Translations under genes and position numbers: made by a program
In this document: piece by piece, positions 14,478 to 60,065 of the stretch
Position numbering within the stretch: position 1 is the first letter of the stretch
Layout: every line of letters begins with the position of its first letter
Notes under the pieces: model-generated
What the model was told of the DNA's origin: nothing
Seen by the model: only the letters and a program-made list of their open reading frames with translations
Database searches by the model: none
Origin: Geobacteraceae bacterium
GTDB taxonomy: Bacteria; Desulfobacterota; Desulfuromonadia; Geobacterales; Geobacteraceae
Assembly: GCA_009773645.1 (NCBI GenBank)
Contig: WSYB01000013.1
Coordinates: 1-64,000, forward strand
Direction of reading: 5' to 3'
Length of the DNA stretch: 64,000 bases

Positions 14478-14621
14478 ACAGGCTCTCCTTCTGAGATAAT
14501 GTTTTAAAAGCCCTGTGATTTCAGGTATATCACGTTCATGATAAAAGTAAAATCTTGACTTTGATTTTCCTCTTGCGCTATGCTGCCTTCCGACTGAGAT
14601 TACCATTGCCGCAAGGTGATA

Positions 14622-14698
14622 GACGATAATACTAAACCTTCCGCGAGGAAGGGGCGGAAAGCCTATAGGGTCTCACGGAGACAGCCGGGTTGCCGAAA
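14622..14698 (+). promoter_or_regulatory. GEMM-I riboswitch with A20 core (cGAMP-type, GEMM-Ib)
   Basis: The conserved GEMM pieces are in order: ACTAAACC, a GCGA-capped stem, GGGGCGGAAAGCC, a second stem, and ACAGCCGGGTTGCCG. The base two before UAAACC, which sets ligand choice (G20 in c-di-GMP aptamers), is A at 14631, as in the Geobacter aptamers shown to bind 3',3'-cGAMP. The aptamer's 3' strand overlaps a terminator, so ligand binding should turn the gene at 14802 on. Confidence 0.88.
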
Positions 14699-18534: not shown

Positions 18535-18617
18535 GTTTCCGAACGGGTAAACCTCGGGTAACCGAGGGACACAAAGCCACGGGTCCTGTGACAGACACAG
18601 GATAGCCGGGTTGCCGA
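18535..18617 (+). promoter_or_regulatory. GEMM-I riboswitch with G20 core (c-di-GMP type)
   Basis: Core pieces in order: GGGTAAACC, a GGTAAC-looped stem, GAGGGACACAAAGCC, a second stem (TCCTGTG/CACAGGA), and TAGCCGGGTTGCCG. The specificity base is G at 18546, so c-di-GMP is the expected ligand. Downstream, CCGAAGA (18614) can pair with TCTTCGG (18642) and a strong hairpin GGTGCCC/GGGCACC lies at 18648-18670, but there is no T-run, so translational control or rho-dependent termination is as likely as attenuation. Confidence 0.88.
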
Positions 18618-18697
18618 AGAAGCGGGGTCCACCTCCCTTGTATCTTCGGTGCCCTGTTTCATAGGGCACCGGGACAGCAATATCGAGGAGGTGGAAC

Positions 18698-50375: not shown

Positions 50376-50790
50376 GGCGCGTGGCGCGTAAGTGCCATGG
50401 TGGTTGATCGTTGACTTGGAGGTGAAAGTCCTCTACGGACCCTGATGGTGGGAACCGTTAGCCGAACGGCAAGGGTGTCCGTCGTGAGGCGGAATCTGAA
50501 GGAAGCCGAAGGCAAAATCCCGGCCCGACGAACAGAAATCGCATATAAGGCTGTCATATCCGGGCGAGAAAGCACGTAACTTCAAAGCCCTATAACCATC
50601 CAGAGGGTATGGCTGTAGATGCGGCGGGTATAGGGGATGAAGGTCGCGCGAATTACCCAGGGAAGTTCTGTCGTCCCGCACTGGGCGAAATCCGGAGCAG
50701 GGGAGCTGAAAAGCAGCTTCCTGATGTTCGGCAGAATGCAGCAGATATCATAGAGCAGGAAGATTGCCTGAATTCATCCTGATTCAGTGA
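50362..50790 (+). mobile_element. 5' portion of a group II intron without reverse transcriptase
   Basis: Starts GTGTGCCTGGCATGG (typical GUGYG-type 5' end). Domain I follows with GGTGAAAGTCCTCTACGGAC, GGGAACCGTTAGCCGAACGG and CCGTCGTGAGGCGGAATCTG, the epsilon and coordination-loop region, up to about 50650-50790. No reverse transcriptase gene and no domain V follow, so the intron is truncated in or before domain IV. The next 900 bp are empty. Confidence 0.75.
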
Positions 50791-52168: not shown

Positions 52169-52368
52169 TGGTCTCATTCTTAGAAATCAGGTGAATGCGT
52201 GTAAACAACGATTTCATGCGAAGTGTTTGCGATCTGCCATCTCCGATTTCTCATGAGACGAGGCATCGTTTCTTTAACAAAATATTTGCCTGCGTGTAAT
52301 ATTTTTGAAATAAATCTTCTGTATAAACAGCGTTAATTGCATATAAATATTTTTTAAGAATCCATTTT

Positions 52369-52442
52369 GGGTACTTTGCTGTCCTTCCCCAGGGAACCAG
52401 AAAGCCCGCTGCGAGTGAATCTTTCGTAGCGGGCTTTTTTTT
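52369..52442 (+). ncRNA. GEMM-like half-aptamer fused to terminator, copy 1
   Basis: GGGTACTTTGCTGTCC, CCCAGGGAACCAGAAAGCC, then a long hairpin AAAGCCCGCTGCGA / TTCGTAGCGGGCTTT and eight T. The GGxACCxGAAAGCC piece resembles the central GEMM block, but the AAACC part and the 3' GCCGGGTTGCC part are missing. A closely similar element lies at 57320. It is about 155 bp before the gene at 52597. Confidence 0.6.
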
Positions 52443-52445
52443 ATT

Positions 52446-52571
52446 GCTCCGGTCGATTGGAAGCTCGCTCCCCAGGCGATGATCGACAGCGTCAAGGCAC
52501 AGAACTACGGCAAGAGCCTCCTCTTCGTGGCCCATCCCTATTATCCGGGGAGTGTCATTAATGGGGTGTAA
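52446..52571 (+). pseudogene. C-terminal gene remnant in the leader
   Basis: An open frame without start reads APVDWKLAPQAMIDSVKAQN and ends LLFVAHPYYPGSVINGV at TAA 52569. It is well-formed protein sequence of GC-rich codon use, but nothing precedes it except the terminator. It seems to be the tail of a deleted gene. The rest of 52169-52596 has no gene. Confidence 0.4.
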
Positions 52572-52596
52572 ACAATAAACGAAAGGAGCATTACTC

Positions 52597-55500
52597 ATGG
52601 CAATCCCCATACCCCTTCTAATCACCGTCCTGATCCGGTCAGCCGGAAGAGTGCGCGCAGTCGTCTTAGTGGGGCTCTTATTCCTGGCTATACCTGCGGT
52701 TGCGCCGGGAAAAACAATTGAAAACCCTTACTATCTTGATCCTGCATGGAAGCTATGGTATGAAAACCCCGAACCCGTGGGTAGTATTCAACCCCCCGCT
52801 TTATCCAACAGACTATATCCCGATGATGCGGACACAACGGCAAACCCCGGTCGTTTTCTGGAATTCAGAAAGACTGATTGGCCCGAACGCAAGTACGCGG
52901 GGTTCTGGTATGACGTATATTCAAGCAGAGACAGTGCCCATAGCTACATCCGAAGTTCATGGAGCGGGGACTTCGGGAACAAAGTCACCTTGCGCCCTCC
53001 CGACTCCCACATGCATCTCGTGGGGGGCGATCTTATGTCATCGGGAGCCAATTGGACCAGTCAATCGACGACCCTCATGGGACATGATCTTGCCAATAGT
53101 CAAGGCAACATTTACGGCCTGGAGAGAAGTTATTATTTTGCCAACGTTCTTCGGTCGGGTCCCACTCATATTTCATACATGGACAGGTCGCTCCTTTACA
53201 GTACCGACCTCTATACTGCCCTCGTACCCTGTTACTACAATTCGATAGGCTCATCGGGCAGCGAGACGATGGCGCTGACCAAACTTCTCATCGCCGGTGG
53301 CTACCTGCCGCGCGACCTCAAACCCGCATTGCTCAGGAACGGCCTTTTCATCCCGACCATGCTCTACATATGGAAGGCTGCTCTCCCCTATGATGTTCCC
53401 CACGACCACGAATTGAAGCATCGCGTCGCCTACACTTCCTACGGAGACGGGTCGGCAAATGACTACGGCGGCAGCAATGTGAATCAGGTATCGGTCATTG
53501 CCAATCGCTATGACCCGACCGCTCATCTCAGGAACATGGTGAACCTGGCCAAATCCATGACCGTCGCCCCACCCATTGCCCTTCTCAGGCATCTGGAGAC
53601 CACGGGCGGAACGCTCGGTTCATCCAATACAACCGCGATCCGTGTCAACCAGGGAAGCGGCGAAACGGTCTCGGTGAGAGTGTCCCTCGAAGACAGTTAC
53701 GACTTGCAGAAACTGCCCCTCTCCATCCGGGCTACCGTCCTCTATGGAAACAAGGATACCGCCGTCGTCCATGAAAGAGGGACGATTTACTCCATCACCG
53801 TCCCCCATGATCCGAAGCTTCCTCAGGGGCGCACCGTCGTCGCCTTCGTTCCCAACAACGGCATTACGGACGGCAACCCCGCGATGGTTTCCATTTATCG
53901 CTCCACCGGACCGAAGAATTACCGGGTGGAACCGGTTGGGGGCATTCGTGATGCCGCCATTCTACCGGGCGAGACGGCGGCATTCGATCTGACGAGTCGT
54001 GACTTCAACGGGTTTCCCGTAGACTTCAGCAAATGGGAAGGAATTGGAGAACTGGATGGGAATATCTTCCATTGGGCGACGGCTCCTGAAACCCCGGAAG
54101 GGGTGTATCCCGTTCGCATCGTTGCATCCGACGGCAGCAGCGGCAACGGGTACAATGACGGTCAGGCGTCCATCCGGGTCTCGAAGACAGTCGCCGATAT
54201 CTCCATCGTGGGAGAGGGGCCGACAATAGGAAATGCGCCGTTCACCGTGAACTTCTCGGCGGAGAATTCCCGTGATTCGCAGGGGAACCCGCTCTCCTTC
54301 ACATGGGATTTCGACGACGCAAACATATCGTCCCAGAGCACCCCCTCCCACACATTCGAGAAGCCCGGTATATATGAGGTGAAGCTCACGGCGAGCGGCC
54401 CCCTGGGTTCCAACACGGCCAAACGCTTGATTGAGGTCCGCCATTTCTGGCCGCTGGCCCTCAATAACGGATGGACGGCGGGGGGCATCGACACCAGTGT
54501 GTGGAGCGGAACCGGCGCCTCGGTCGTTACCGACTCCGCACTGGGAACGCGGTTAAGAATGAAAGCGGCGGTATCTGGTCAACCAGATACGCTCACAACG
54601 AACGCATCCTTTTCTTTGCCTCTGTACGTGGAGGTCGATTTCAGGAGAAATGAAACCGCCCCTCCAAATACGGGCATCCGGGTTCTGGGTAGTCTCGTGG
54701 GGAACCCGGCCGGTGTCACCAATTCCGTTTACATGCAGCACGATACTTCCATAGGCCACCCATCCGCAGCCGACCCGACGAAATGGCAGACCTTGTTCAT
54801 CAACCAGCAGCTGCGCCTGCCGGATTTGCGCTCCCTGCTCCGCATGTATGTGGACGAAGATCCCGACAATGCGGGGAAAATCCGGTACCGCGGATACCTC
54901 GATTCGGATATGGGGGAGCGTTCCTTCGCATTCGACAACCAGAATCCCAATGAATCCTGGTTCAATTCGAAACTGGCGTTGGTAACCACATCTACCTCCA
55001 TCTTCGATATCTGGCGGATGCAGGTGTGGCAACCGGGCGGGGCGGCGACCGGTCCTGAAATCAACGTCCTTTCGGACGGCAGGACGGTAGTTGAGCGTCA
55101 GTTGACGTCGGATGCCTCTGACAAAGAAGTGCTGGTATACAGGAACGGAACGTATTTCGGCGTTCCTTCATCTGCCGGCGGCAGTCTCTCCAAGACCTTC
55201 ACCATTCGGAATGATGGCGACATGCCCCTTCAATTAACCGGCGCTTCGCCTTATGTGGTGATCTCGGGTGCGGCGGCCTCCGACTTCAGTGTAACCTCTG
55301 CGCCGAACCCTACAATAGAACCGGGCAAAGTAACGAGCTTCGATGTACTCTTCGCTCCAGGCGCTGCCGGCGCACGCACGGCCAAACTGAGCATCGGAAG
55401 CAATGACCCAGACGAGGCGACATACGCATTCAGTATTCAGGGACGCGGCTTCGAGACCCCGAATATAGATGTGCGGGGGAACGGGCTGCGCATAAAAAAT

Positions 55501-57159
55501 GGTGCGGATACTTCCAATCTGACCGATCACACCGATTTCGGTCCTGTTGTCGGGGAAGTCGTGCGCAGCTTTGTCATTCACAACACCGGGACCGGAGTTC
55601 TGAACATAAGCAGCGTAGCAGTCGAAGGCGCCGATGCCGGCTATTTTCACCTGACCAAAACTCCTAGGGGGACGGTTGCCGGGGGAGGGAGTACGACTTT
55701 CAGCATCGCATTTTCTCCCTTGGGAGAACTGCGCAGGGCCACGGTAACCGTGTCATCAGACGATCAGGATACGCCCGTCTATACATTCAGTATTCAAGGG
55801 GGCGGTCTATCCCAAACCATCGTTCCCCCCAAAGTGACTATTGGAAGATGGTCATTCGACGAAGGGGCGGGGACGGTTGCCCATGACGAAACGACAAACG
55901 GGCATGACGTCAATCTCTTCGGCGCAGGATGGGCACAAGGTATAATGGGCTCGGCGCTATCCTTCGATGGTGTCGATGACTACGCTACCATCCCCTCGAC
56001 GGCCGCCCTGAGCTTCGGAGAAAATGAGAGCTTCACCGTCGAAGCGTGGATCAAGGTCGCGCCGGGCATCACGGGAGAAAGGGTGTTCCTGGGCAATCGA
56101 TCCGGGTCCACCGGCACGGGTTTCTCTCTGGCCGTCCTTGGTGAGGGGAACTGTCGTCTTCACGTCAGGTTCGCCGATACGGATGGTGATGACACGGGCT
56201 ATCTCGGCAACAACATCGGTGCCTGCATAAACGATGGGAGATGGCACCATGTGGGGGTCGTTGTTGATCGAAGCCTGCAACAAGCCACCTTCTATACCGA
56301 TGGCACAATGGGAGCCGCCATCGGTTTGCAGTCCATCGGCCGAAACGGAATCGGGGACCTCACGAGCGGAGAGCCCTTGAAGATAGGGGCCGGCGCCGAT
56401 ACATACTATGGAGGTCTGGTGGATTCCGTTGCGATTTACAAGCATATAGTGGACATGGAGCAGTCGGTGAGGGAGATGCGTGCGGATGTTGCCATCACGG
56501 CAGAAGCATTTCCTGTTCCTCTAACGCTTGGGAACAGCTTGACTTACAGGATCACGGTTTCGAACAACGGGCCTTCGCCGAGTGTAGGGACCTACGTTCA
56601 GCCTTATCTCTACACAGATTCTGAATTCATGGGCGGATCGCCCGAGTGCACAGAGGCGGGCGGATACGTGGAGTGCGCTGCCGGCGTCCTTGCGTCCGGT
56701 GAGTACAGGACCTTTGAAGTTCTCTTCCGCCCCCTTTCCCTGCCTGATTCCCGACAGTATGAGAGCGGTATTTGGTCCTGGACACTGACTACCGATCCGA
56801 ACTTTGATAACGACTATGCCCAGATGTCTACAGATATCCTCGAGAGCGACATCTCTTCCCTGGTGAGCATCACAACATCGAGCTTCGTCTACAACCGGGC
56901 CACCAAACTCTACACCGGCAACCTGACCGTCACCAACTCCGGCCAGACGGCACTTTCCGGACCTTTCGCCCTCTGGCTGAACAACCTGACCGGCGGCGTC
57001 ACCCTGGTCAACGGCAACGGCACCTTCAACGGCTACCCGCACATCGACCCGACAGCTCCGACAAACCTCAACCCCGGCGAGTCATTTAGCGTGCCGCTTC
57101 AGTTCAGTAACCCGGCCAATGCAAAGATCAGCTTTTCCCCGGTGACGTTCCGGAAATAG
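52597..57159 (+). CDS. Giant secreted multidomain protein (PKD, two choice-of-anchor-D, LamG, CARDB-like)
   Basis: 1520 residues behind AAAGGAGC. A long signal peptide with hydrophobic core VVLVGLLFLAIPAVAP. The first 450 residues have no recognised domain. Then a PKD domain (about 525-610: FTVNFSAENS, LSFTWDFDDANIS), a beta-rich lectin-like region, two choice-of-anchor-D repeats (about 870-960, 965-1065; ASDFSVTSAP and DAGYFHLTKTP), a LamG-type domain (about 1080-1280: ALSFDGVDDYATIP), a CARDB/DUF11-like repeat, and a C-terminal domain of about 100 residues shared with the alkaline phosphatase. Likely a cell-surface or extracellular binding protein. Confidence 0.85.
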   Translation: MAIPIPLLITVLIRSAGRVRAVVLVGLLFLAIPAVAPGKTIENPYYLDPAWKLWYENPEPVGSIQPPALSNRLYPDDADTTANPGRFLEFRKTDWPERKYAGFWYDVYSSRDSAHSYIRSSWSGDFGNKVTLRPPDSHMHLVGGDLMSSGANWTSQSTTLMGHDLANSQGNIYGLERSYYFANVLRSGPTHISYMDRSLLYSTDLYTALVPCYYNSIGSSGSETMALTKLLIAGGYLPRDLKPALLRNGLFIPTMLYIWKAALPYDVPHDHELKHRVAYTSYGDGSANDYGGSNVNQVSVIANRYDPTAHLRNMVNLAKSMTVAPPIALLRHLETTGGTLGSSNTTAIRVNQGSGETVSVRVSLEDSYDLQKLPLSIRATVLYGNKDTAVVHERGTIYSITVPHDPKLPQGRTVVAFVPNNGITDGNPAMVSIYRSTGPKNYRVEPVGGIRDAAILPGETAAFDLTSRDFNGFPVDFSKWEGIGELDGNIFHWATAPETPEGVYPVRIVASDGSSGNGYNDGQASIRVSKTVADISIVGEGPTIGNAPFTVNFSAENSRDSQGNPLSFTWDFDDANISSQSTPSHTFEKPGIYEVKLTASGPLGSNTAKRLIEVRHFWPLALNNGWTAGGIDTSVWSGTGASVVTDSALGTRLRMKAAVSGQPDTLTTNASFSLPLYVEVDFRRNETAPPNTGIRVLGSLVGNPAGVTNSVYMQHDTSIGHPSAADPTKWQTLFINQQLRLPDLRSLLRMYVDEDPDNAGKIRYRGYLDSDMGERSFAFDNQNPNESWFNSKLALVTTSTSIFDIWRMQVWQPGGAATGPEINVLSDGRTVVERQLTSDASDKEVLVYRNGTYFGVPSSAGGSLSKTFTIRNDGDMPLQLTGASPYVVISGAAASDFSVTSAPNPTIEPGKVTSFDVLFAPGAAGARTAKLSIGSNDPDEATYAFSIQGRGFETPNIDVRGNGLRIKNGADTSNLTDHTDFGPVVGEVVRSFVIHNTGTGVLNISSVAVEGADAGYFHLTKTPRGTVAGGGSTTFSIAFSPLGELRRATVTVSSDDQDTPVYTFSIQGGGLSQTIVPPKVTIGRWSFDEGAGTVAHDETTNGHDVNLFGAGWAQGIMGSALSFDGVDDYATIPSTAALSFGENESFTVEAWIKVAPGITGERVFLGNRSGSTGTGFSLAVLGEGNCRLHVRFADTDGDDTGYLGNNIGACINDGRWHHVGVVVDRSLQQATFYTDGTMGAAIGLQSIGRNGIGDLTSGEPLKIGAGADTYYGGLVDSVAIYKHIVDMEQSVREMRADVAITAEAFPVPLTLGNSLTYRITVSNNGPSPSVGTYVQPYLYTDSEFMGGSPECTEAGGYVECAAGVLASGEYRTFEVLFRPLSLPDSRQYESGIWSWTLTTDPNFDNDYAQMSTDILESDISSLVSITTSSFVYNRATKLYTGNLTVTNSGQTALSGPFALWLNNLTGGVTLVNGNGTFNGYPHIDPTAPTNLNPGESFSVPLQFSNPANAKISFSPVTFRK

Positions 57160-57169
57160 GAGAAAAACC

Positions 57170-57256
57170 ATGAACTCCCTTACAATAAAATCAGTTAGAT
57201 TAAAGAAAACGGCCGATAAGGGATATTTGCCTATATTTTACAGTTTCTTAATATGA
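57170..57256 (+). pseudogene. Truncated copy of the PEP-CTERM gene start
   Basis: The 1520-residue gene ends GGAAATAG and runs into GAGAAAAACCATGAACTCCC; the alkaline phosphatase gene ends GGAATAG and runs into GAGAAAAACAATGAACTTTC, the start of the intact gene at 59433. Here the frame closes after 28 codons (MNSLTIKSVRLKKTADKG). It is the stump of a duplicated downstream gene. Confidence 0.55.
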
Positions 57257-57319
57257 TCGAAATAATCTTGCTCTATACTCCACTGCAATTGAATTAAAGG
57301 AATTGTGGAATCTTATTTC

Positions 57320-57394
57320 GGGAACTTTGCCGACCTCTCAGGAGGGACCGGAAAGCCCGCTACGAAAGAACCTTCGTAGCGGGCTTTTGTTTTT
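57320..57394 (+). ncRNA. GEMM-like half-aptamer fused to terminator, copy 2
   Basis: GGGAACTTTGCCGACC, CAGGAGGGACCGGAAAGCC, then the perfect 15-bp hairpin AAAGCCCGCTACGAA / TTCGTAGCGGGCTTT and a T-run. Same architecture and similar sequence as 52369-52442. It is followed within 20 bp by a complete GEMM riboswitch. Confidence 0.65.
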
Positions 57395-57407
57395 TTCAAG
57401 CTTGAGT

Positions 57408-57478
57408 ATTTTTCGCCAAACCCATCGCAAGGTGGGGACGGAAAGCCACGGGTCCGCCGCGGACAGCCGGGTTGCCTT
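57408..57478 (+). promoter_or_regulatory. GEMM-I riboswitch with G20 core (c-di-GMP type)
   Basis: Pieces in order: TTCGCCAAACCC, a GCAA-capped stem, GTGGGGACGGAAAGCC, second stem (GGTCCGCCGCGGAC), AGCCGGGTTGCC. The specificity base is G at 57415, so c-di-GMP is the expected ligand. The 3' strand is shared with the terminator at 57465, so binding should switch the alkaline phosphatase operon on. Confidence 0.88.
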
Positions 57479-57509
57479 TCTCTATAGGAGAGAGCACCCG
57501 GCTTTTTTT
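57465..57509 (+). terminator. Riboswitch-controlled terminator
   Basis: AGCCGGGT (57465-57472, part of the aptamer) pairs with ACCCGGCT (57496-57503), with an inner stem TTCTCT/GGAGAG and a run of seven T at the end. Confidence 0.88.
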
Positions 57510-57643
57510 GTATGCATCTGATGCAAATTTTTTGGAAAGGAGGAGTGAAAACTTAAGTACCGACAACCTCCAATGCGCACAACCGATGATGGCTACATTC
57601 TCAGGCAGTATCAAATTTGCTCGTGAAGAAAAGGAGAAGAACC

Positions 57644-59422
57644 ATGCGTTTCAAGACAAAACATGCAATTTTGGGCATTACCGCCGGGGCGACGCTGCTC
57701 GCCTCGACCCAGATGGCCCTGGCAGCCGGGCAGGCCAAAAACGTCATCCTGATGATCAGCGACGGTCAGGGGTTCAACACGATCAAGGCCACCGACTATT
57801 ACACCGGCAACACGGGGGTGTACGAGAGCTTCATGCATAAATACGGCATGAATACCAGCTCGGCCGGCAAGCGCGGCGGATACGTGGGCGCGCCCTACAA
57901 CCCGGCGTCCATGGCCGGAAGTTTCGCGTATGCCATGACCGGCGCGACCGACTCGGCCTCGGCAGCAACGGCCATGTTCACCGGCGTGAAGAACTTCGAC
58001 AACGAAGTCAACTACACCACAGACGGCAAGGCACTGGTTACGTTCTTCGAGAAGGCCGCCAAGGCAGGCAAGAGCATCGGCGCCATCTCAAGCGTAGACT
58101 GGACGCACGCCACACCGGTCAGCGTCTTCGGGCACAACATCGCCCGAGGCAACTACGGCCAGATGGCCAAGGAAGCCATCTACGGCGCCAACCCCATCAG
58201 CAATAACAACTTCTACGACGCCGGCAACTACAACGGGAACCTGAAGGTCGTCATGGGCCCGGGCAACCCCTGGTATGACAACAACGCCGTTCTGCGCACC
58301 ACCCCCAACTACGGTCTGATCGGCGAGCAGAAGCACTGGGACGACCTTAACGCCGGCATCAACGGTTGGAACCTCGTCACCACGCAGGCCCAGTTCGAGG
58401 CTCTGATGAGCGGCCCGACCCCCGACAAGGTCCTGGGCATGCCCCAGGCCTACGACACCTTGCAGTATAGCCGCACCGGCCTGGGCCCACTCAACGACAA
58501 ATCGTTACCCTATGACGATGCGCTCAACGCCGGTGTGCCCAACCTGGTCACCATGACCAAGGCCGCTCTGAACGTGCTCGACAACGGCAGTAACGGCTTC
58601 GCGCTCATGATCGAAGGGGGCGCCATCGACTGGGCCAACCATGCCAACCTTACCGGTCGCATGATCGAGGAACAGATCGACTTCAACAACTCCGTCCAGG
58701 CGGTCGTCGACTATCTGGACAGCAACACCAACGGCAACAACTGGGACAACACCCTGCTGATCGTCACTGCCGACCATGAGTGCGGCCACCTCTGGGGCGA
58801 CGGCCGCGTCCTGGGCTCCACCTTCTTCGACGTGAACGCCAACGGCGTGTTCGATCACGGCGTTGACTACGCCCATGTCAAGAACAACGGCGTAGGCGTA
58901 CTGCCGGAGACCTGGTACCACTCGGGCAGCCACACCAACGCCCTGGTTCCCTTGTTTGCCAAGGGCGCCGACAGTGAATTGCTCGCCAATCATGTCGTCG
59001 GGACTGAGAACAATCTCAAGGCCATCTACAATCTGGATGACACCTGGAGCGGCAAGTACATCGACAACACCGGCGTCTTCCACGTCATGAACACGGCGTC
59101 CCTCGCCACTGACATCTCTTCGCAGGTGAGCGCCACAACCACTTCGTTCGTTTACAGCCGCGCCACCAAACTGTACAGCGGCAAGCTGACCATAACGAAC
59201 ACAAGCGCAACCCCGATCAGCGGTCAGTTGATAGTATCACTGAACAACCTTACTTCGGGTGTCACGCTGACAAACGCCGGCGGTACGGATAACGGAACTC
59301 CCTTCGTCAAACCGGTCATGACCGGCGACCTGAATCCGGGCGCATCGATTACCGTTCCGCTGGCTTTCAGCAACCCGTCTAACGCCAAAATCAACTTTAC
59401 CCCTGTGACATTCCAGGAATAG
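57644..59422 (+). CDS. Secreted alkaline phosphatase with C-terminal shared domain
   Basis: 592 residues from MRFKTKHAIL after AAAAGGAGAAG. Signal peptide ends STQMALAAGQ. Catalytic features of the PhoA superfamily: ILMISDGQGFNT (metal Asp), the nucleophile serine in TGATDSASAATAMFTG, IEGGAIDWANHAN, VTADHECGHLWG and HSGSHTNALVPLFAKG. It hydrolyses phosphomonoesters outside the cytoplasm. Residues about 497-592 form the domain shared with the 1520-residue protein (DISSQVSATTTSFVYSRATK, PSNAKINFTPVTF), possibly for anchoring or export. First gene of a c-di-GMP-type riboswitch operon. Confidence 0.93.
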   Translation: MRFKTKHAILGITAGATLLASTQMALAAGQAKNVILMISDGQGFNTIKATDYYTGNTGVYESFMHKYGMNTSSAGKRGGYVGAPYNPASMAGSFAYAMTGATDSASAATAMFTGVKNFDNEVNYTTDGKALVTFFEKAAKAGKSIGAISSVDWTHATPVSVFGHNIARGNYGQMAKEAIYGANPISNNNFYDAGNYNGNLKVVMGPGNPWYDNNAVLRTTPNYGLIGEQKHWDDLNAGINGWNLVTTQAQFEALMSGPTPDKVLGMPQAYDTLQYSRTGLGPLNDKSLPYDDALNAGVPNLVTMTKAALNVLDNGSNGFALMIEGGAIDWANHANLTGRMIEEQIDFNNSVQAVVDYLDSNTNGNNWDNTLLIVTADHECGHLWGDGRVLGSTFFDVNANGVFDHGVDYAHVKNNGVGVLPETWYHSGSHTNALVPLFAKGADSELLANHVVGTENNLKAIYNLDDTWSGKYIDNTGVFHVMNTASLATDISSQVSATTTSFVYSRATKLYSGKLTITNTSATPISGQLIVSLNNLTSGVTLTNAGGTDNGTPFVKPVMTGDLNPGASITVPLAFSNPSNAKINFTPVTFQE

Positions 59423-59432
59423 GAGAAAAACA

Positions 59433-60065
59433 ATGAACTTTCTTAAAATCAAACTTATTGTCATCGCCGTCATCATGTTCGCAGCCAGCTCGGCCTTTGC
59501 GGCATTAGGATACGACGTAACTGTCAACACCTCCAGCCTCATCAACCAGGAGGGCTATCTTTACTTCCAGTATACTCCCGTGAACGCAGTAGATTCTACC
59601 GTCACGCTTTCCAACTTCAAAATGGACGGCAGCGGGCTCCATGCCATTCCCACTTCTCAAAGCAGCTCGGTTACCGGCCACCTGTTCTCTTCCGTCACTT
59701 TTGCCAATGCCCCAACTGAACTCAACGATTACAACCATGGCGTCAACGGATTCAGCAATGACATCAAATTCCATCTCGAGTTCGCATCCAACTCTTTAGG
59801 TGCGCCTGCTGGCGGAAGCAGCACCTTCTCCCTCGGCCTGTTCAGGGACGTAAATGGCCAAACGCCGCTTTTTAACGTAAGCGGGATTAATTACTCTGTC
59901 CCCGGGACCCTGTTCACCATCGATCTGAACAATGACGGTACCACTGCTTTCCAGACACTGGCGAACGAAGCAACCGTCACCCCCACCCCCATCCCGGCCG
60001 CGGCCTGGCTGCTCGGCTCCGGACTCATGGGTCTGGTCGGAATCAGGCGTAAAATGGTTCTTTGA
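59433..60065 (+). CDS. Exported protein with PEP-CTERM-like (VPTPIPAAAW) tail
   Basis: 210 residues starting 10 bp after the phosphatase stop, with TAGGAGAAAAAC as binding site. Signal peptide MNFLKIKLIVIAVIMFAASS...AFA (quoted in part). The tail PTPIPAAAWLLGSGLMGLVG then IRRK is the proline-alanine variant of the PEP-CTERM exosortase signal. The middle is beta-type sequence with no enzyme motif. Probably a surface protein co-expressed with the phosphatase. Confidence 0.87.
   Translation: MNFLKIKLIVIAVIMFAASSAFAALGYDVTVNTSSLINQEGYLYFQYTPVNAVDSTVTLSNFKMDGSGLHAIPTSQSSSVTGHLFSSVTFANAPTELNDYNHGVNGFSNDIKFHLEFASNSLGAPAGGSSTFSLGLFRDVNGQTPLFNVSGINYSVPGTLFTIDLNNDGTTAFQTLANEATVTPTPIPAAAWLLGSGLMGLVGIRRKMVL

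Follow-up and report, generated by a model that had tools for sequence, protein, structure and literature searches.

The two elements described here are members of an RNA family that is absent from the Rfam library searched. Each is a 41-nt imperfect hairpin in which the segment AAAGCCC serves both as the 3' strand of an antiterminator and as the 5' arm of an intrinsic terminator, and these are mutually exclusive folds. Such hairpins are leader elements of exosortase-substrate (PEP-CTERM) and other secreted-protein genes. Both lie in the window, by which we mean the whole stretch of 64,000 nucleotides from a Geobacteraceae contig (WSYB01000013.1) that was analyzed.

The hairpin elements of the window and their terminators

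Both copies follow the scheme GG[U/A][A/C] CUUU-G-CNG-A-CC..GG-NMC-CNG AAAG CCC and are identical at 29 of 41 bases. Folding and alignment place GGG, CUUU and CNG of the 5' side in pairs with CNG, AAAG and CCC of the 3' side, with a short variable hairpin between them. The common motif blocks that a first-pass annotation had pointed out are present and exceed chance expectation: the pattern ACTTTGC-N(10-30)-GAAAGCC occurs twice in the window against 0.01 expected from 100 shuffles, and a longer element pattern, allowing up to 3 mismatches, finds just copies 1 and 2 with 0.00 expected. The same annotation described a terminator built directly on the shared block, and in both copies there is indeed a terminator stem of 16 bp that begins with GAAAGCCCGCT. 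It erred in taking the 3' closing strand to be absent. That strand is the 5' arm of the terminator, and it pairs with GGG..CUUU..CNG.

The features are collected in Table 1. Taken alone, the terminators have folding energies of -26.6 (copy 1) and -27.6 kcal/mol (copy 2), and the antiterminators of -12.2 and -15.3 kcal/mol, respectively. Relative to the best fold overall, keeping the antiterminator costs at least 10.9 kcal/mol in copy 1 and 10.3 kcal/mol in copy 2, and the default should therefore be termination. The contig carries two more copies beyond the window, both on the minus strand (81311-81355 and 143983-144025), so that a covariance model finds four copies in this genome. By eye, the copy at 81311 has a long-looped terminator; it is among those counted below as lacking one.

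Table 1. Positions of the features in the window (R1 is the covariance model described in the next section)
Feature	Position	Strand	Basis
Copy 1 antiterminator hairpin	52368..52408	+	R1 56.2 bits, E 1.3e-14 in own genome (copy 1 is among the 24 sequences of R1); fold
Copy 1 intrinsic terminator, sharing GAAAGCCCG with the antiterminator	52400..52442	+	Hairpin and T run
Copy 2 antiterminator hairpin	57319..57359	+	R1 57.6 bits, E 4.6e-15 (copy 2 is among the 24 sequences of R1); fold energy alone
Copy 2 intrinsic terminator, sharing GAAAGCCCG with the antiterminator	57351..57396	+	Hairpin and T run
c-di-GMP-I-GGC riboswitch, in tandem 3' of copy 2	57406..57480	+	RF03167 61.2 bits, gathering score 59
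Terminator of the c-di-GMP riboswitch, AGCCGGGT...ACCCGGCT and T run	57465..57511	+	Fold and sequence
Gene behind copy 1: 1520-aa protein with choice-of-anchor D domains	52597..57159	+	NF012200 E 1.3e-29
First gene behind copy 2: alkaline phosphatase-like secreted protein	57644..59422	+	NF007810 E 7e-31, 107.5 bits against a cut-off of 540
PEP-CTERM protein gene after the phosphatase-like gene	59433..60065	+	NF038129 E 1.8e-25 and VPLPA-CTERM E 1.6e-6, both above cut-off

The start of the phosphatase-like gene is an ATG within the listed ORF 57617-59422, and the profile search was run from 57647. By eye, the C-termini of the phosphatase and of the 1520-aa protein behind copy 1 are alike. Elsewhere in the window we observed two more c-di-GMP-I riboswitches (18537-18619 and 14621-14697), a PyrR binding site with a T run at its end (RF00515, 21685-21791) and parts of group II introns at 50478-50651 (RF02001, domains 1-4) and, near the left edge, at 21-97 (RF00029).

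The elements had been described as GEMM-like half-aptamers fused to terminators. A new short riboregulatory element with a terminator was correctly recognized in this description, and homologues of it have been found; the kinship with GEMM is not supported. A c-di-GMP-I (GEMM-I) riboswitch consists of two helical arms with an AAACC module and a P3 closing strand. The elements share with it the letters GGGAC..AAAGCC and the kind of target gene, and it often follows them, but their covarying structure is a single hairpin with no AAACC module and no P3, in which AAAG is paired with CUUU. The c-di-GMP-I models RF01051 and RF03167 give no match over either element up to an E value of 10, whereas the stretch directly behind copy 2 matches at E 4.2e-14. 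On this absence of a match, together with the covarying hairpin, we rejected a GEMM half-aptamer or its remnant. Decay of an aptamer is unlikely, since compensatory changes keep the fold across many genomes. The statement that copy 2 is followed by a full GEMM riboswitch with its own terminator is borne out; the riboswitch starts 47 nt after the last base of copy 2.

The RNA family and the genes behind it

A first relaxed pattern matched 66 of 97 genomes, mostly by chance as judged by sequence, and a backward control matched many; only rows with the hairpin were kept. A seed of 24 sequences was assembled from these finds in relatives, the copies of the window and of its genome, and one element beside another copy. 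In this seed 95% of the paired cells hold, in an alignment where the pattern fixed CTTTGC and AGAAAGCC, so that most such columns could not vary. The covariance model R1, built from the 24 sequences, gave 77 matches at E<=0.01, spread over 26 of the 141 genomes of the order. Of the 395 genomes of a phylum sample, 8 had matches at E<=0.001, two of these being weak. In an alignment of 76 matches, which was fitted to the model and is biased towards it, 95.1% of cells are paired, 81 cells are changed on both sides as against 21 in shuffles, and the covariation is 0.219, whereas slid partners reach no more than 0.050. The middle pair of CNG/CNG is illustrative: among 75 distinct rows it is U-A in 47, C-G in 16, A-U in 5 and U-G in 5. 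The bases of the bulge and of the internal loop are conserved.

A pattern scan of named genomes yielded 57 stretches, of which 35, together with 11 loci from the phylum sample, made up 46 loci scored with R1. Strong scores came from Desulfosarcina alkanivorans, a Desulfatitalea, Syntrophobacterales and other Deltaproteobacteria, so that further classes of the phylum also carry the element; from the organism names we read this phylum as Desulfobacterota. Loci labelled as other phyla scored below 20 bits or had no R1 match and were taken as chance, and one locus with 53 bits (L202) is labelled merely "Proteobacteria bacterium". In a Desulfatitalea metagenome-assembled genome (L169, 6687-6786) two elements stand in direct tandem, 13 nt apart, with the gene for the small protein discussed below about 1.5 kb behind. 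For the counts that follow, a set of 89 elements was formed from the best 70 of the 76 matches and the best 22 of the 33 matches in the 46 loci, minus three repeats; one member, L143, is probably a chance match. A scan with Rfam 15 placed no family at or above its gathering score over the elements. The sub-threshold matches, the best being ctRNA_p42d (21.8 of 50 bits) and rnk_pseudo (26.3 of 55 bits) with E values near 0.02, were dismissed as chance.

The first-pass annotation had also entertained a distinct short element, possibly responsive to a ligand or a protein, which would be a plain terminator if it had no further homologues and terminated constitutively. Because homologues exist, the first of these grounds is gone, and a distinct element that may answer a ligand or a protein is supported. 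One might still suppose that these are constitutive terminators of the upstream gene in which GEMM-like letters occur by chance or as remnants. The terminators are certainly strong, and the AAAGCCC hairpin is followed by at least 5 T in 8 in 71 of 89 elements, with 7 more having 4 T; among 199 control AAAGCCC sites of the same loci the numbers are 38 and 33. (These counts supersede a first one, 55 of 89 against 26 of 200, in which the T window was too narrow.) The upstream ORF runs in the same direction as the element in 37 of 57 cases. It is opposite in the other 20, however, and of the nearest downstream ORFs 73 of 83 share the direction of the element. When it is further considered that a conserved, covarying second hairpin competes with the terminator, that the genes behind are largely of one kind and that the GEMM models give no match, a plain terminator becomes a very improbable explanation.

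The kind of gene can be specified. Among complete first ORFs, 38 of 75 end in a PEP-CTERM-like motif, according to a pattern of our own. We profiled 65 of 84 distinct first genes, the 19 omitted being judged cut off, doubtful or repeated; the matches comprise VPLPA-CTERM (25), subtilases (7), calcineurin-like phosphoesterases (7), alkaline phosphatases (3) and the exonuclease ExeM (2). Nine of the 89 elements fall within a mechanical ORF of at least 150 aa, and alignment of the upstream DNA across elements revealed no clear promoter box. Inspection by eye of three loci (L044, L086 and L129) shows TTAAC-type repeats upstream of the element that resemble PHO boxes, with which the phosphatase and nuclease genes would agree.

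Rfam scans of 48 sources show a c-di-GMP-I riboswitch no more than 460 nt after an element, on the same strand, in 14 of them (copy 2 of the window, L044, L049, L086, L087, L088, L094, L108, L111, L119, L126, L176, L180 and L188). A Moco riboswitch is found within about 300 nt of an element in five loci (L035, L038, L040, L103 and L107); in the first three of these the Moco (molybdenum/tungsten) riboswitch is upstream of the small-protein gene.

A small protein that accompanies the elements

Many elements are preceded by a small gene, and its product has the C-terminal sequence ..FTGxIKINFSQGGIGRIEKFEEI. The motif of this protein, 47-79 aa in length, is FTGxIKINFSQGGIxRIEKFEEI. Searches of Pfam and NCBIfam gave nothing over a cut-off for it, and among the Pfam matches of 23 small proteins at E<=1 there was no BglG-type domain (CAT_RBD/PRD); nor was there an ANTAR match for the same 23. 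The predicted structure is a helix plus a beta-hairpin, in a model of moderate quality (pLDDT 81, pTM 0.54). A search of the PDB found no relative by sequence (best E 0.18) and no chain by fold at E<=0.001 (best E 1.6). In the genome of the window the gene is at 81389-81571 of the contig on the minus strand, 17 kb to the right of the window, and encodes 60 aa. A profile, A5, was made from 23 of the 25 distinct small-protein sequences found; it has matches in 22 of the 141 order genomes and in 7 of the 395 genomes sampled from the phylum. The genes are fewer than the elements, 1 against 4 in the genome of the window and 2 against 10 in another (G131).

The presence of the protein follows that of the element closely. 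In the order, A5 detects it in 21 of the 23 genomes with an element at E<=1e-4 and in 1 of the 118 others (Fisher P = 1e-21, with relatedness ignored); counted by genus the proportions are 14 of 16 and 1 of 13 (P = 2e-5). Genomes with weak elements, three in the order (G039, G022, G068) and two in the phylum sample (G282, G507), stand outside these strong counts and have no A5 protein; adding the three gives 21 of 26. Since 16 of the 23 element genomes contributed a sequence to A5, the seven non-contributing ones are of particular value, and 5 of these have the protein (P = 5e-7 against 1 of 118), or 4 of 6 when G010, which had been seen before, is left out (P = 8e-6). The lone protein genome among the 118, G054, has a weak element of 20.3 bits right behind the gene. 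In two genomes with strong elements, G047 and G127, no protein was detected; these are 85% and 83% complete. In the phylum sample the protein occurs in 7 genomes, including every one of the 6 that have an element at E<=1e-5. Five of the 6 are represented in A5 and the sixth, G386, is new, while the seventh protein genome, G215, has a 24-bit element behind the gene.

As to the arrangement of gene and element, at 30 of 34 protein loci an element is found no more than about 320 nt downstream on the same strand, at one of them (L247) with only 16.6 bits; three loci have none near and one has an element only at about 540 nt. At the loci of the 89-element set, 25 of 26 gene copies begin upstream of the element on the same strand. 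Two side observations may be recorded. In L040 (3255-3539) the small-protein frame continues through the first element with no stop before it, and in G031 and G016 there are divergent relatives of the small protein (L248, L249) with no element detected nearby, which may have another target RNA.

Seven genomes were chosen by RNA pattern and accepted by model score before the protein search. Six of them have the protein, as against one weak match (E 4e-5) in eleven genomes with chance matches to the pattern. This comparison is partly circular, in that G531 is the same genome as G410, and G529, G531 and G533 were already in A5; for the four fresh genomes (G527, G528, G530, G532) the count is 3 of 4 (P = 0.03 against 1 weak match in 11). 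Four of the six (L256, L258, L260, L261) have no detected element directly after the gene. The order is reversed in G528 and G532, where an element on the same strand precedes the gene by about 1.5 and 2.6 kb. In distant genomes, therefore, neither close adjacency nor a constant order of gene and element can be taken as general. The five elements of Desulfosarcina alkanivorans and its gene for the protein are all within 68 kb.

The elements also cluster with the exosortase: of the 69 better ones (of 77), 22 are within 30 kb of an exosortase gene as against 2.1 expected. Elements and protein are often in one neighborhood, and co-inheritance therefore inflates the counts given above. Carried to its end, this consideration would have the RNA answer to another protein while the small protein merely travels with the exosortase locus, in which elements, protein and exosortase do cluster. 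We think this quite unlikely, because the exosortase (PF09721), which would be the hub of such a locus, occurs in 66 of the 118 genomes without an element as well as in 20 of the 23 with one, and so tracks the element far more loosely than the protein does. Moreover, elements are spread over several contigs in G131, G004 and G016, and the protein gene of G386 is not on the same contig as the elements. Another family of similar size, DUF2292 (PF10055), which matches 1 of 23 small proteins weakly (E 0.0051), was rejected as the partner: its best score is 16.8 bits against a cut-off of 22, and it is found in 10 of 23 element genomes and 54 of 118 others, showing no tracking. Among the matches listed in a literature search on DUF2292 there was no such system.

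A more serious alternative is that the elements are small-molecule riboswitches of a new class, using the same antiterminator mechanism, with the small protein as a neighbor or a co-regulated gene. The conserved bases of the bulge and internal loop would suit this, as would the tandem arrangement with true riboswitches for c-di-GMP and Moco and the place of the protein gene in G528 and G532, where, because it sits behind an element, it could be a regulated gene. But a regulated gene is expected behind its element, whereas this one starts in front of it in 25 of 26 cases at the loci of the 89-element set. Protein and RNA moreover occur together in nearly one-to-one fashion, and there are few conserved unpaired positions to form a metabolite pocket. 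We consider such a riboswitch possible, though on balance improbable.

A proposed mechanism and its relation to known systems

The reading we prefer is that the 47-79 aa protein clamps the antiterminator and permits read-through. Co-occurrence and gene order make this binding probable; our confidence in the protein as the factor is reduced because the test set overlaps the profile and because of the two reversed gene orders. Protein and RNA may also vary together. All 9 rows (7 proteins) in which the protein has Thr in the motif GGITRIE show C,C in the two loops of the RNA, as do 3 of 24 other rows; the genomes are related and not independent.

In the proposed scheme the elements would act as leader attenuators. 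Left unbound, the nascent RNA would pass into the stronger terminator (about -27 kcal/mol) and transcription would stop. A bound factor would clamp the earlier-made, weaker hairpin (about -12 to -15 kcal/mol), so that AAAGCCC would stay paired to CUUU and GGG; the terminator could not then form, and the surface-protein genes would be transcribed. The antiterminator is presumably the shape that a factor would hold, since the conserved bulges exist only there. Binding would thus mean ON, and the protein would convey a signal; the likeliest factor would be the 47-79 aa protein, with the product of the single gene of this genome serving all four copies. The c-di-GMP aptamer behind copy 2 is probably an ON switch as well, because its 3' strand overlaps its terminator. 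Where an element is followed by such a riboswitch, as in copy 2, both terminators would have to be passed and the pair would behave as a two-input AND gate for the factor and c-di-GMP.

This design has known parallels. In the LicT/SacY/BglG-RAT layout a regulator gene is followed by its own attenuator, with further sites elsewhere. As in BglG/LicT-RAT, the hairpin of our elements overlaps the 5' arm of an intrinsic terminator. Further likenesses to these systems, which are treated in PMC8934654, are a structured RNA that precludes the terminator, a regulator gene beside its own site and several sites per regulator. They differ in that the small protein has no BglG-type domain and is predicted to be a helix plus beta-hairpin, that the RNA sequence is another one, and that sugar-transport genes are not among the families listed behind the elements. 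We therefore propose that the system would work like LicT/BglG on RAT, by analogy and without homology. The ANTAR systems, covered in the same source, likewise rely on a protein-stabilized antiterminator, but ANTAR RNA has two hexaloops where the element is one hairpin with a variable loop, and the 23 proteins gave no ANTAR match. Leader RNAs of Geobacter, with five riboswitch candidates in Geobacter, have been reported (PMC11109978, NAR 2024). Two of the five, the yjbM and nifV motifs, precede other genes and are located at the translation start, unlike our elements; an earlier description of the RNA among the remaining candidates is possible. Literature searches combining exosortase or PEP-CTERM with riboswitch, RNA motif or antitermination brought up no RNA-level control among the matches listed.

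As a whole, these results lead us to suggest, tentatively, that the elements and the protein may constitute a dedicated antitermination class. It would comprise a family of 47-79 aa RNA-binding proteins outside Pfam and NCBIfam with its own 41-nt RNA family, controlling exosortase-sorted surface proteins phylum-wide. Coupling in series to c-di-GMP riboswitches would give a two-input gate, Moco riboswitches being adjacent in some genomes, and the class would have split into protein and RNA subtypes that change together. If this is true, exosortase/PEP-CTERM surface proteins would have a control point, with a defined RNA target, a candidate regulator in the small protein and a set of genes under control, and the arrangement at copy 2 would represent a natural protein-controlled attenuator in series with a c-di-GMP riboswitch.
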